IMG/VR virus record: IMGVR_UViG_3300028025_000604
Coordinates: 1-31,321 of that record
Strand: one strand, 5' to 3'
DNA length: 31,321 nucleotides
Source: a virus
Both the position numbers and the translations under genes were made by a program. The notes under the pieces are model-generated. The model was given only the letters and a program-made list of their open reading frames with translations, made no database searches and was not told where the DNA came from. Below, piece after piece: positions 26,999 to 29,911 of this stretch (position 1 is the first letter of the stretch; each line of letters opens with the position of its first letter).

Positions 26999-27140
26999 TC
27001 GGTAATTCTAAGGGTTTCTCTAATTGGCGCAACCATGCTTCATTTTCGGCAATAGCGCCAGATATGGCATGGAAGTTAGCCAACATTTGCTCTTTTTGCT
27101 TCTCTAGTTCAGCAATACGGGCTTGCAGTTGTTCTTTCAT
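26991..27140 (-). CDS. Small coiled-coil protein before terS (49 aa)
   Basis: I start at ATG 27140, which has GGAGGAA upstream and overlaps the co-chaperonin stop. A longer reading from 27173 would lie inside that gene. The 49 residues form one charged heptad helix (MKEQLQARIAELEKQKEQML), a short break and a second helix ending EKPLELPND. It may dimerise. Its stop overlaps the terS start by ATGA. A role beside the terminase is possible by position, but no homologue is recognised. Confidence 0.5.
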   Translation of the reverse strand: MKEQLQARIAELEKQKEQMLANFHAISGAIAENEAWLRQLEKPLELPND

Positions 27141-27421
27141 TCTTCCTCCATTACAAAACAAACATCTTGCCAACTCATCTTAAGTAGGCGTTCGTTATTG
27201 TGCTTGATTTCCTCAAACTTCAAGTATTCGTCCTTGTAGTCTTTGTGGAATGTACCGAAAGCGATCTTGTCACCCACGTTTAGACCCTCGGCTTGTGCGT
27301 CTGGGCCTACTGCTATGACTGTTCCACGGCTTTCAGCTTCTGCTGATTGGAAATAAATTGTGCTTTGAATGCGTTGTTCAGGGCGAACAAGAATCTTGTC
27401 TTTCAACGGCTGCAAGTTCAT
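27137..27421 (-). CDS. Phage co-chaperonin, GroES/Cpn10-like
   Basis: This 94-residue protein (GroES has 97) follows the Cpn10 plan: PLKDKILVRPEQ (5-16), a flexible mobile-loop segment with Ile22-Tyr23-Phe24 at the place of the GroEL-binding Ile-Val-Leu, ESRGTVIAVGPDA (30-42), LNVGDKIAFG (47-56), YLKFEEIKH (66-74) and the closing strand WQDVCFVMEEE. It would cap the host GroEL so that the coat or another virion protein can fold. No GroEL gene is in the window. AAAGGAAGCTAA precedes the ATG. It lies a few genes before terS in the late block. Confidence 0.75.
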   Translation of the reverse strand: MNLQPLKDKILVRPEQRIQSTIYFQSAEAESRGTVIAVGPDAQAEGLNVGDKIAFGTFHKDYKDEYLKFEEIKHNNERLLKMSWQDVCFVMEEE

Positions 27422-27636: not shown

Positions 27637-27827
27637 TTTGCCTCTCTAGCCAAAACTGCTTTGTTTAATCCCGCAGCCAGGCGTTCAGCAAAACCCTTGT
27701 TTTCTAAATCAAAGGTTCTTCCTTCTTTGTAATCAGCGAACTTTTCCTGATGTTCCACGGTAGATGGCATCGGAGATTCTCTCCTTGCCGCCAATGCCGC
27801 TGCTTCTAACTCGCTCAAGTGTTTCAT
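27633..27827 (-). CDS. Hypothetical protein (64 aa) overlapping the kinase gene
   Basis: AGGAGGTTAA directly precedes the ATG, one of the strongest ribosome sites in the window. The product is charged and helical, with HLSELEAAALAARRESPMPS near the start and NKGFAERLAAGLNKAVLARE at the end. No motif is recognisable. The first 95 bases also encode the C-terminus of the zeta-like kinase in another frame. Its stop overlaps the start of the four-cysteine gene. It may be a small partner of one of its neighbours; no evidence for this beyond position. Confidence 0.55.
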   Translation of the reverse strand: MKHLSELEAAALAARRESPMPSTVEHQEKFADYKEGRTFDLENKGFAERLAAGLNKAVLAREAK

Positions 27828-28620
27828 TTAACCTCCTACGAACTTCATTTTCCTCTAGTTTAGGTAGCTTGTCAAGCTGGCTTGCAATAGCCTTACCCTT
27901 ACCTTTGGAGTTATCAACGATTTGTATGTTTACCCTGGGGTTGCCCTTGTATTTCTTTTGAAGTTCCTCAATGACCTGGCGTGCGCCAATGTGGGTCTTT
28001 AAATGTTCTTCAATTGGGACGGTGCGGCCTGAACCCTTTTCTTTTTCCATGCGGCTGGCCCTGCTCAATGCGCCAAACTCCAACGCTTCAGCTGGGTCAC
28101 GGTATGTGTAAACAATACGAACCTTGCGCTTGGCATCTAATGCCTGTTGAATCTTTTTGTCAGCTGAATCAAACTTATTCATGTTTGTGTCGTAAATCAT
28201 TTCCGACCGTTTCAGGGCGGGATCGACACTTTCCAATAAATCTAACGCTGTGGTCTTACCAGCACCAGTTCCACCAGCACTAAAGACAACGGTGTTATCC
28301 ATGCCTTTGGGTGTGGGGTTCTTTAGCTTTTCCGCATACAGCTGTTTCATAAAAGCGCTAGACGGTTCATGCACATCAGCTGACCTGGTGCGGTCTGCCC
28401 TGTATTCAGGGGACATTTCCCTGGCTACGTCTGTGTTAATAATGCGTCCACCCTTTGATTCAGGATGTGCTGCATATTCCTGAATCAATTGCGGGTAGGC
28501 TTGCATCAGGCGTTGGAAATACGCCTGTTCTGTAGCATTAACAGGGGCTTGTTCAGGGACAACTCCCCTTGCAGGGGCTGGCTGTCCCATCCCCATCATG
28601 GAGGACAGGGGGACAGCCAT
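27733..28620 (-). CDS. Zeta-toxin-like P-loop kinase (295 aa)
   Basis: The N-terminal ~60 residues are Pro/Ala/Gln-rich. Then come RIINTDVAREMSPEYRADRT (59-78) and VHEPSSAFMKQLYAEKLKN (83-101), a P-loop VVFSAGGTGAGKTTALD (111-127; Lys122), MIYDTNMNKFDSADKKI (141-157) and VYTYRDPAEALEFGALSRAS (170-189). The end is SDAIYRGTSGK. This matches a phage and bacterial branch of zeta-toxin-like kinases, which in canonical members phosphorylate UDP-GlcNAc. Here the Asp-Val-Ala-Arg block precedes the P-loop instead of following it. Substrate unknown. No antitoxin is evident. Start-codon choice is uncertain because several Met codons follow within 11 residues. Confidence 0.65.
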   Translation of the reverse strand: MAVPLSSMMGMGQPAPARGVVPEQAPVNATEQAYFQRLMQAYPQLIQEYAAHPESKGGRIINTDVAREMSPEYRADRTRSADVHEPSSAFMKQLYAEKLKNPTPKGMDNTVVFSAGGTGAGKTTALDLLESVDPALKRSEMIYDTNMNKFDSADKKIQQALDAKRKVRIVYTYRDPAEALEFGALSRASRMEKEKGSGRTVPIEEHLKTHIGARQVIEELQKKYKGNPRVNIQIVDNSKGKGKAIASQLDKLPKLEENEVRRRLNETLERVRSSGIGGKERISDAIYRGTSGKVR

Positions 28621-28623
28621 TTT

Positions 28624-28836
28624 TTAACGATACTCTGATTTGGTCTTGGTGTAGCAAATACCGTCTGTGCGACCAGTATTAAATTGCTTGTCAGCACCCA
28701 TCTTGTCCTCTTTACCCATAGCCACGCCACCACGCATTTTTTCCATGCGTTCGCCTGTACGGTCAGAAGATGCCGCACCTTTGGGGGGTGTTGCGCCAGT
28801 TGTGCTTTTAGCCATTGTTGTATCAGCTTTTCCCAT
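28624..28836 (-). CDS. Small basic Gly/Lys/Thr-rich protein, first gene of the late block (70 aa)
   Basis: I start at ATG 28836 because CAAGGAAAAATC precedes it; the frame is open to 28896 but that adds sequence overlapping the promoter. The product is low-complexity, basic and probably disordered (KSTTGATPPKGAASSDRTGE, then RGGVAMGKEDKMGADKQFNT). Small proteins of this kind are found near terminase genes of aquatic phages. It lies 25 bases from the predicted transcription start at about 28861 and would be the first gene expressed from that promoter. Confidence 0.52.
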   Translation of the reverse strand: MGKADTTMAKSTTGATPPKGAASSDRTGERMEKMRGGVAMGKEDKMGADKQFNTGRTDGICYTKTKSEYR

Positions 28837-28864
28837 GATTTTTCCTTGCAAAGAATTTATGGTT

Positions 28865-28896
28865 TTGACTTTATGTCCAATATGGCACAATGTCAA
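28865..28896. promoter_or_regulatory. Dyad-symmetric promoter region between divergent genes
   Basis: On the minus strand a perfect TTGACA (28896-28891), a 17-base spacer and TAAAGT (28873-28868, 4 of 6 to consensus) form a sigma70-like promoter for the 28836 gene and the late block. On the plus strand TTGACT (28865-28870) is in the mirrored place, but the matching -10 position is poor. The whole 32 bases form an imperfect palindrome, 11 of 16 positions matching between arms (TTGACnTTnTGnC). It could bind a dimeric regulator or two competing polymerases. Confidence 0.55.
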
Positions 28897-28919
28897 TCAC
28901 CATTTTAACAGGATTTATC

Positions 28920-29090
28920 ATGGCTTCAAAATTTATCATCACCCCAGCTAAATCAAAAACTCCCCGTGAGCCTATGCACTACGAAAAAGTCTCTGAACAT
29001 CGCTCTGAAATGTCACGCATTAAGGCTGTGGAAAAGGAATTGAAGCAGCATGAGGCACAGGGTTTAGACAAGGCTCACAGGGGTAAGTAA
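28920..29090 (+). CDS. Lone plus-strand small basic protein (56 aa)
   Basis: The ATG at 28920 follows AACAGGATTTATC. The 56 residues are basic and mostly helical after a short strand (MASKFIITPAKSKTPREPMH, then MSRIKAVEKELKQHEAQG). It is the only plus-strand gene I can support to the right of position 3031 and is transcribed against all its neighbours. Its last 16 bases overlap the end of the HNH gene. Divergent placement across a dyad promoter suggests a regulator or an antisense-controlled gene. No DNA-binding motif is certain. Confidence 0.5.
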   Translation: MASKFIITPAKSKTPREPMHYEKVSEHRSEMSRIKAVEKELKQHEAQGLDKAHRGK

Positions 29091-29395
29091 GGAATTGGCA
29101 CTTCTGGAGGCCATCTGTCTCCAAGTGCCTTAATCGTTGCTTTGTGGGCTTTTAGCCACATTTCTTTGCGCTCATCTTTGGATAAGTGCGCCCCCTGGTC
29201 AATTTCATAATGGCATTTAAGGCACAGCGCAGCCACCAGGTTATCGTCTGCCTTTATTCCTTTGCCTTTGCCCCCGCCCCAATTACTATGGGCCGCCTGA
29301 ACCCCGTTATCTATGCCACAGTTTTGACAGGCTAAACCCGCTACTAGCTTTAACAACTTCTGGCTTCTCACATACTGGTGTTTCAGGTATTGCAT
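29075..29395 (-). CDS. HNH-type nuclease, YbcO/DUF1364-like
   Basis: This 106-residue protein has the cysteine/histidine pattern of small lambdoid HNH nucleases: CQNCG (Cys23, Cys26), AAHSN (His36), GKGIKADD (45-52), ALCLKCHYEID (Cys58, Cys61, His62, Asp66). YbcO-type proteins are found next to RusA and NinB in lambdoid phages, which agrees with the neighbours here. The start is uncertain: a GTG at 29371 would give VRSQKLLKLVAGL, the usual family opening, while ATG 29395 adds 8 residues and a larger overlap with the preceding gene. Activity is likely on branched or single-stranded DNA, by family inference. Confidence 0.7.
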   Translation of the reverse strand: MQYLKHQYVRSQKLLKLVAGLACQNCGIDNGVQAAHSNWGGGKGKGIKADDNLVAALCLKCHYEIDQGAHLSKDERKEMWLKAHKATIKALGDRWPPEVPIPYLPL

Positions 29396-29513
29396 ATTCT
29401 TTGGTTTGGTACTTGTGGCCGTTTTCGCATTCCCGCCTTCTAAGGATAAATTCGGGGCTTGCTTTTGTGTCTAAAACTTTGTTCTTGCGTATCCCGCAAA
29501 CTGGACACATCAT
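29307..29513 (-). CDS. NrdR-like zinc-ribbon protein (68 aa)
   Basis: I start at ATG 29513, overlapping the ninB stop, with AAGGGA 8 bases upstream. MMCPVCG (Cys3, Cys6), KVLDTK (12-17) and LRRRECENGHKYQT (24-37; Cys29, His33) copy the N-terminal zinc ribbon of the bacterial regulator NrdR, which represses ribonucleotide reductase genes. The ATP-cone that senses nucleotides in NrdR is absent; instead there is a short tail ending LSKLWHR. The fourth metal ligand would be His instead of Cys. It may bind DNA as a reduced NrdR mimic, or be a general ribbon. Confidence 0.6.
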   Translation of the reverse strand: MMCPVCGIRKNKVLDTKASPEFILRRRECENGHKYQTKEYAIPETPVCEKPEVVKASSGFSLSKLWHR

Positions 29514-29911
29514 GCTTCTATTCCCTTTTCTGCCATCCAGCACAATAGCCATTCAATAAACTCAGAGCCTTCTTCCACGGTAAATTTGTGGCTTTGCAAT
29601 CCCAGCTGCACAACTCTTTCACCGTCTAGGCTTGGGGCAACCTTGCCAATCTTGCGCCCTGTTTCATGCGCCCATTGGTCAATAAGCAATCTTTTCCAAT
29701 CGTCTGATGACCAGGCAGACCCTGCCGTTTTCATTTGTTTGGCAACCAAATCAATCAAACTGTGAAACATGGCGTTTTGGTCAGAACTGCGTGTGGCTTT
29801 TTTGACTTCAAGGCGCAGCTGCTTTCCCGCCTGGAGTGTTTCTTTGATCTTGGGCCACAAGTCTTTTAGGACGGTGTGGGCTTGTTGGCTGTTGTGCAGG
29901 GTGTAAATCAT
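29510..29911 (-). CDS. ninB: NinB-family recombination protein
   Basis: This 133-residue protein matches lambda NinB (Orf), which binds single-stranded DNA and helps load recombination proteins. Visible features are LRLEVKKATRSSDQNAMFHS (33-52), a helix LIDLVAKQMKTAG, WSSDDWKRLLIDQWAHETGR (67-86) and the C-terminal HKFTVEEGSEFIEWLLCWMA. It is coupled by ATGA both to the small membrane-protein gene before it and to the NrdR-like gene after it. With RusA two genes upstream and the HNH gene downstream it reproduces a lambdoid nin region. Confidence 0.82.
   Translation of the reverse strand: MIYTLHNSQQAHTVLKDLWPKIKETLQAGKQLRLEVKKATRSSDQNAMFHSLIDLVAKQMKTAGSAWSSDDWKRLLIDQWAHETGRKIGKVAPSLDGERVVQLGLQSHKFTVEEGSEFIEWLLCWMAEKGIEA

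Follow-up and report, generated by a model that had tools for sequence, protein, structure and literature searches.

What does a near-symmetric stretch of DNA do between two divergent genes at the head of a phage late region? The window, by which we mean the whole 31.3 kb stretch analysed here (positions 1 to 31,321 of the IMG/VR record IMGVR_UViG_3300028025_000604), encodes a P22-type portal, coat and scaffold, which place this freshwater phage in a P22-like podovirus group. In it, an 83-base gap separates a minus-strand gene for a 70-aa protein (m70) from a plus-strand gene for a 56-aa protein (p56), and a sequence-only reading took the palindrome in that gap to be the heart of a small self-contained switch between an early and a late gene block, gripped by a dimeric protein.

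The junction and its genes

The m70 gene (28624..28836, minus strand, ATG at 28836) opens the late block of terminase, portal and coat genes and shows a pN/pS of 0.182. On its other side, p56 (28920..29090, plus strand) stands opposed to the surrounding minus-strand genes and converges with an HNH endonuclease gene (29075..29395, minus strand; phrog_131, E 2.4e-24), whose 3' end it overlaps by 16 bases, so that the earlier description of p56 as antisense into this gene was correct. The nin-type genes NinB and RusA are located upstream of the HNH gene on the minus strand, and the gene order around p56 is preserved across the group. The picture of a lone reversed gene in a minus-strand genome holds within a minus-strand run of about 28 kb but not for the entire window: Erf and YqaJ-type exonuclease genes occupy the plus strand at 1-2700, in a block that converges on the lysis end of the minus-strand genes.

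The closest GenBank relatives of the window are two metagenomic phages (about 71-76% over a small part), and the closest named relatives of the group come from a spring; among GenBank phages, relatives of m70 were found only in two Manatee Spring phages and none of p56. A search of genome contigs with an m70 relative for a prophage or host gave no match.

In IMG/VR, homologues of p56 are present in 76 loci. Its pN/pS is 0.195 in frame and exceeds 1.2 in the other two forward frames; p56 is a real, selected protein gene. AlphaFold models it as one long helix over residues 24-46 (pLDDT near 90), flanked by ends of low confidence. As a candidate classical DNA-binding protein it was rejected, there being one helix in the model, neither an HTH nor a ribbon fold, and no match in Pfam. 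Segments resembling p56 (VEKELKQHE...KAH) occur inside longer glycine-rich proteins in loci L065-L073 and L076, including a 243-aa protein whose gene in L069 lies between those for head and tail, and a further one follows the endolysin gene in L074. Such late-gene neighbours suit an accessory protein, made late or linked to the virion, better than they suit a repressor, both roles being conjectural.

Several other features of the region were noted. Directly after m70, the gene at 27733-28620 has a product with a kinase domain of the zeta-toxin type (PF06414, E 2.5e-14); it is found only in some relatives and is hence a variable cargo inside the late block. A GroES-like co-chaperonin gene (phrog_3188, 27137-27421) near the terminase is present in nearly all relatives, and a small NrdR-type Zn-ribbon protein (PF22811, E 3.6e-9) is encoded at 29307-29552 among the nin-type genes. 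A search of the window for known RNA families returned none.

The palindrome and its conservation

The palindrome spans 28865-28896 (TTGACTTTATGTCCAATATGGCACAATGTCAA), and a recount bore out the account given of it, with 11 of 16 mirrored positions matching and TTGAC beginning both arms. Its outer arms (TTGACTTTATG/CACAATGTCAA; left, 28865..28875, and right, 28886..28896) are complementary at 9 of 11 positions and enclose a centre at 28876..28885. By itself the palindrome is not beyond chance: upon dinucleotide shuffling of the gap, a dyad as good as 9/11 arose in 27% of shuffles, one with 16-base arms as good as 11/16 (spacing up to 24) in 41%, and an equal of the spacer-less 32-mer in 5.6%.

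We then compared the locus across 60 relatives and the window, which collapsed to 53 unique haplotypes. Both 11-base arms are invariant in all of these, and variation in the 32-mer is confined to the middle 10 bases (6/10 positions variable, mean diversity 0.20); the flanks of the dyad are nearly invariant (25/28 and 18/23 positions). The four-fold sites of m70, p56 and HNH, in contrast, have a mean diversity of 0.37-0.43 and are almost never invariant. Thus, the gap is strongly conserved, unlike the synonymous sites of its flanking genes. A scan for the exact dyad, which by design selects for it, matched 82 contigs; those beyond the first set show this junction too, with p56 genes that have diverged further, or are contig ends. 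Among them is L116, which keeps both arms perfectly despite a diverged leader.

Since such a scan selects for the dyad, relatives were next collected through m70, blind to the gap (370 in IMG/VR, of which 80 were kept). These temper the expectation that the dyad and p56 are conserved together: this is true of close relatives, but among relatives gathered in this way L242 and L245 have a broken dyad. L063 and L064, too, are without it.

Promoter elements on the two strands

On the minus strand, a predicted late promoter comprises a TTGACA -35 element (28891..28896) and, across a 17-base spacer, a TAAAGT -10 element (28868..28873), with a predicted start near 28861; an AAGGAA ribosome-binding site for m70 lies at 28842..28847 and is invariant. 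No promoter-like match between 26.5 and 31.3 kb outscores the pair (28896 to 28868), which at 10/12 positions shares the top score, in a region where such matches are not enriched over shuffles (4 found vs 6.2 expected). The case for it comes from comparison. An exact TTGACA precedes m70 in 28 of 38 gap clusters, p56 clusters included, where shuffles gave 1.4 expected and at most 5, and it is usually followed by a -10-like hexamer at 16-17 bases; these cluster counts, like the lineage counts below, are not independent, as lineages share ancestry. Beyond the window's own clade, p56 is missing from most m70 relatives, which still have TTGACA upstream of m70; this argues that the late promoter is old. 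The minus-strand promoter proposed from the sequence for the late block is thereby backed by deep conservation. We infer that it is ancestral, and that p56 and its promoter were most simply added in one part of the tree. As to the polymerase, the early promoters of relatives are canonical (TTGACC/TATAAT) and point to a sigma70-type enzyme in the host. Separately, a near-palindrome, TTCCTTGCAAAGAA, overlies the m70 ribosome-binding site at 28842-28855; its place is taken in relatives by CTTTGCAAAG or CCTTGCAAGG, and in some by TTTAGCTAAA.

On the plus strand, the sequence-only reading had a mirrored element facing p56. A plus promoter is indeed supported, though not with the 17-base spacer that the mirror image implies: the corresponding -10, CAATGT, matches at 2/6 positions, is not kept, and was rejected. 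Instead, a -10-like hexamer is found 26-29 nt before the p56 ATG in all 10 p56 lineages (chance, 13.5% per gap), being CACAAT in the window and CATAAT, TACAAT or TATAAT in the others, and this fixed distance identifies the probable plus -10 as the extended element TGGCACAAT (28883..28891), with a predicted start near 28898. A candidate TTGACT -35 (28865..28870), invariant in the 53 haplotypes and in L116, precedes it at 15 bases, a short spacing, and the -10 of the window's clade matches at only 4/6. An AGGA ribosome-binding site (28910..28913), likewise invariant, precedes p56. The right arm of the dyad is thus shared by the minus -35 and the plus -10, and the variable centre sits within both promoter spacers: every promoter-element position is invariant in the 53 haplotypes, and variation falls in the shared spacer.

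Diverged lineages separate the palindrome from the promoters. In L242, where the arms are GTTACTTTACG and CATAATGTGAA and match at 7/11, the late promoter persists as TTCACA-N17-TAAAGT along with a plus -10, TGGCATAAT. In L245 and L267, 18 bases separate a TTGACT -35 from a plus -10 of CATAAT; the candidate -35 as placed in the window (28865..28870) is kept in none of these three. L261, L301, L306 and L317 show a different layout upstream of m70, with one shared symmetric -10, ATTGTACAAT, and predicted starts about 23 bp apart in the L261 type. Comparison thus supports both genes, their predicted promoter elements and the conservation of these, with the dyad breaking in diverged lineages while the putative promoter elements are retained or re-formed.

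Immediately beyond the p56 stop codon, inside the 3' end of the HNH gene, lies a plus-strand hairpin, GGCACTT...AAGTGCC (29097..29129). The fold of 29085-29145 has z=-5.2, six predicted outer-stem pairs are kept in 52-53 of 53 haplotypes, and the HNH third-codon bases 29099 and 29102 in its stem are invariant. Its possible roles are to end the p56 transcript or to protect it, though with no U run behind it the hairpin departs from the textbook terminator.

A reader of the dyad or an overlap of promoters

Were the dyad an operator, both arms would be gripped by a dimeric protein, of phage or host origin, that shuts or flips both promoters. The invariance of the arms, even in L116, would be explained by this, and the arm centres are 21 bp, or two helix turns, apart, which suits binding on one face of the DNA. 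Against it stands the ordinary strength of the dyad for such a gap, as well as its loss in L242 and L245 and its replacement in L261-type phages. Nor does it behave as a repeated operator, a candidate role that we discarded: six full relatives carry one copy apiece, and half-sites are not in excess in the window. No cognate reader emerged either, P22 Cro being the only repressor family to turn up. Among the complete or near-complete relatives that we gathered, four of them with 127-base end repeats, one Cro-like gene (Pfam P22_Cro) is present in the control region of 8/8, the early control region itself not being found in the window record. However, the contigs examined hold 19 types of Cro recognition helix, nearly all of them on contigs with the identical dyad; a varying recognition helix over a constant dyad implies that Cro is not its reader, and the dyad as a Cro operator was ruled out. 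The NrdR-like Zn-ribbon neighbour was discarded as a partner, being undetected in several dyad-bearing loci, and p56 models as one helix. Searches of the eight relatives gave no CI-type HTH (HTH_3) above the cut-off, no integrase, and no Q-type antiterminator of the one family covered (PF06530, 0/8, with the E. coli control positive). On this evidence we regard an operator as unlikely. As the dyad is broken in promoter-keeping relatives not selected for it, no cognate regulator was found and p56 models as a single helix, the proposed dimeric protein is not supported, and the early/late switch is an unsupported addition. On the Cro-like genes themselves, the inverted repeats near them differ among relatives (among L001-L169), and the cro promoter -10 lies very close to the ATG, such that the cro message may be leaderless.

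It is also rather improbable that only the minus-strand promoter is real, with p56 weakly or otherwise expressed and the plus -10 incidental. The minus promoter does have the better consensus and the deeper conservation, against 4/6 for the plus -10; however, p56 is under selection, nothing else upstream on its strand is an evident source for it, and 10/10 lineages have a -10-like hexamer at a fixed distance. That the palindrome acts as RNA, forming an attenuator or terminator hairpin when transcripts of the minus-strand block upstream read through it, strikes us as extremely improbable. A fold is available to the 32-mer, at -10.5 kcal/mol for the minus strand and -6.9 for the plus, but no U-run follows it, the terminator scan listed none there, it would be absent from both predicted transcripts, and its pairing is weakened in L242 and L245.

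The gap is therefore best read, and probably so, as two overlapping divergent sigma70-type promoters used by the host polymerase, the late one ancestral, with no need for a protein switch. Each strand has a -35/-10 pair (28896-28868 on the minus, 28865-28891 on the plus), as sequence and conservation agree, and the polymerase footprints of the two would overlap, in keeping with the original argument that two polymerases could not bind at once. The host polymerase would read either promoter, with the overlapping footprints making binding exclusive. From the minus start, presumably near 28861, it would produce a 25-base leader and the late block; from the plus promoter, where TGGCACAAT would be helped by TTGACT, a short message serving p56 only, starting near 28898 by prediction and perhaps ending at the conserved hairpin at 29097-29129. 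Since only a single polymerase could occupy the site at once, competition between the two transcripts is expected. Transcription itself, its start sites, the competition, the function of the hairpin and any timing are here deduced from the DNA. With the -35 of each promoter set opposite the -10 of its partner, the sequence takes on a palindromic look; the mirror image is most likely a by-product of promoter overlap and not the docking site of a switch.

Some observations count against overlapping promoters: besides the 4/6 match and short spacing of the plus-strand pair, a plain sigma70-type late promoter gives no account of its delay, and the perfect arms of L116, with its diverged leader, would be equally expected of an operator. 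A true early/late switch, with an unrecognised phage or host protein reading the 11-base arms and p56 or antisense transcription as the second state, seems to us a doubtful proposition; it would have to operate in a phage group that appears to be without Q and integrase.

The late region of lambda and P22 runs through the nin genes, Q and pR' to the late operon. Our locus resembles it in the succession of nin-type genes (NinB, RusA, HNH) and a predicted sigma70-type promoter before the late block, and in having relatives that carry Cro in their early control region; it differs in that no PF06530 Q-type antiterminator was found in eight relatives and in the reversed gene at the junction. The gap is a new instance of an already known arrangement, overlapping divergent promoters, in which a polymerase at one promoter can exclude another (PMC4207663; PMC12825309). 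In the mutually exclusive overlapping divergent Pc/Pr promoters of pLS20 (PMC4207663), too, a long operon and a single reversed gene share DNA with room for one polymerase at a time. In pLS20, however, the product of the lone gene is the regulator RcoLS20, and operators and looping are involved (PMC4207663); here no regulator was found and p56 does not resemble a DNA-binding protein. The bidirectional promoter class of Warman and Grainger (PMC10268837, PMC12825309) has a shared symmetric -10, with starts 7-25 bp apart by its published definition (PMC10268837). Divergent starts from near-symmetric DNA and polymerases that can compete are common to both, but the window falls outside this class, as its predicted starts at 28861 and 28898 are 37 bp apart and its symmetry comes from a -35 facing a -10. 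By their predicted starts, the L261-type relatives with ATTGTACAAT would fit it.

Together, these comparisons show where the late promoter probably lies in a P22-like phage group that is abundant and uncultured. The group presents a natural series, from the late promoter alone, through a reversed gene interlocked over the same promoter, to a bidirectional layout with a shared core, and so offers a way into the question of how divergent promoters arise. Should competition between the two starts prove to set the time of late expression, this would constitute a simple, regulator-free form of phage timing.
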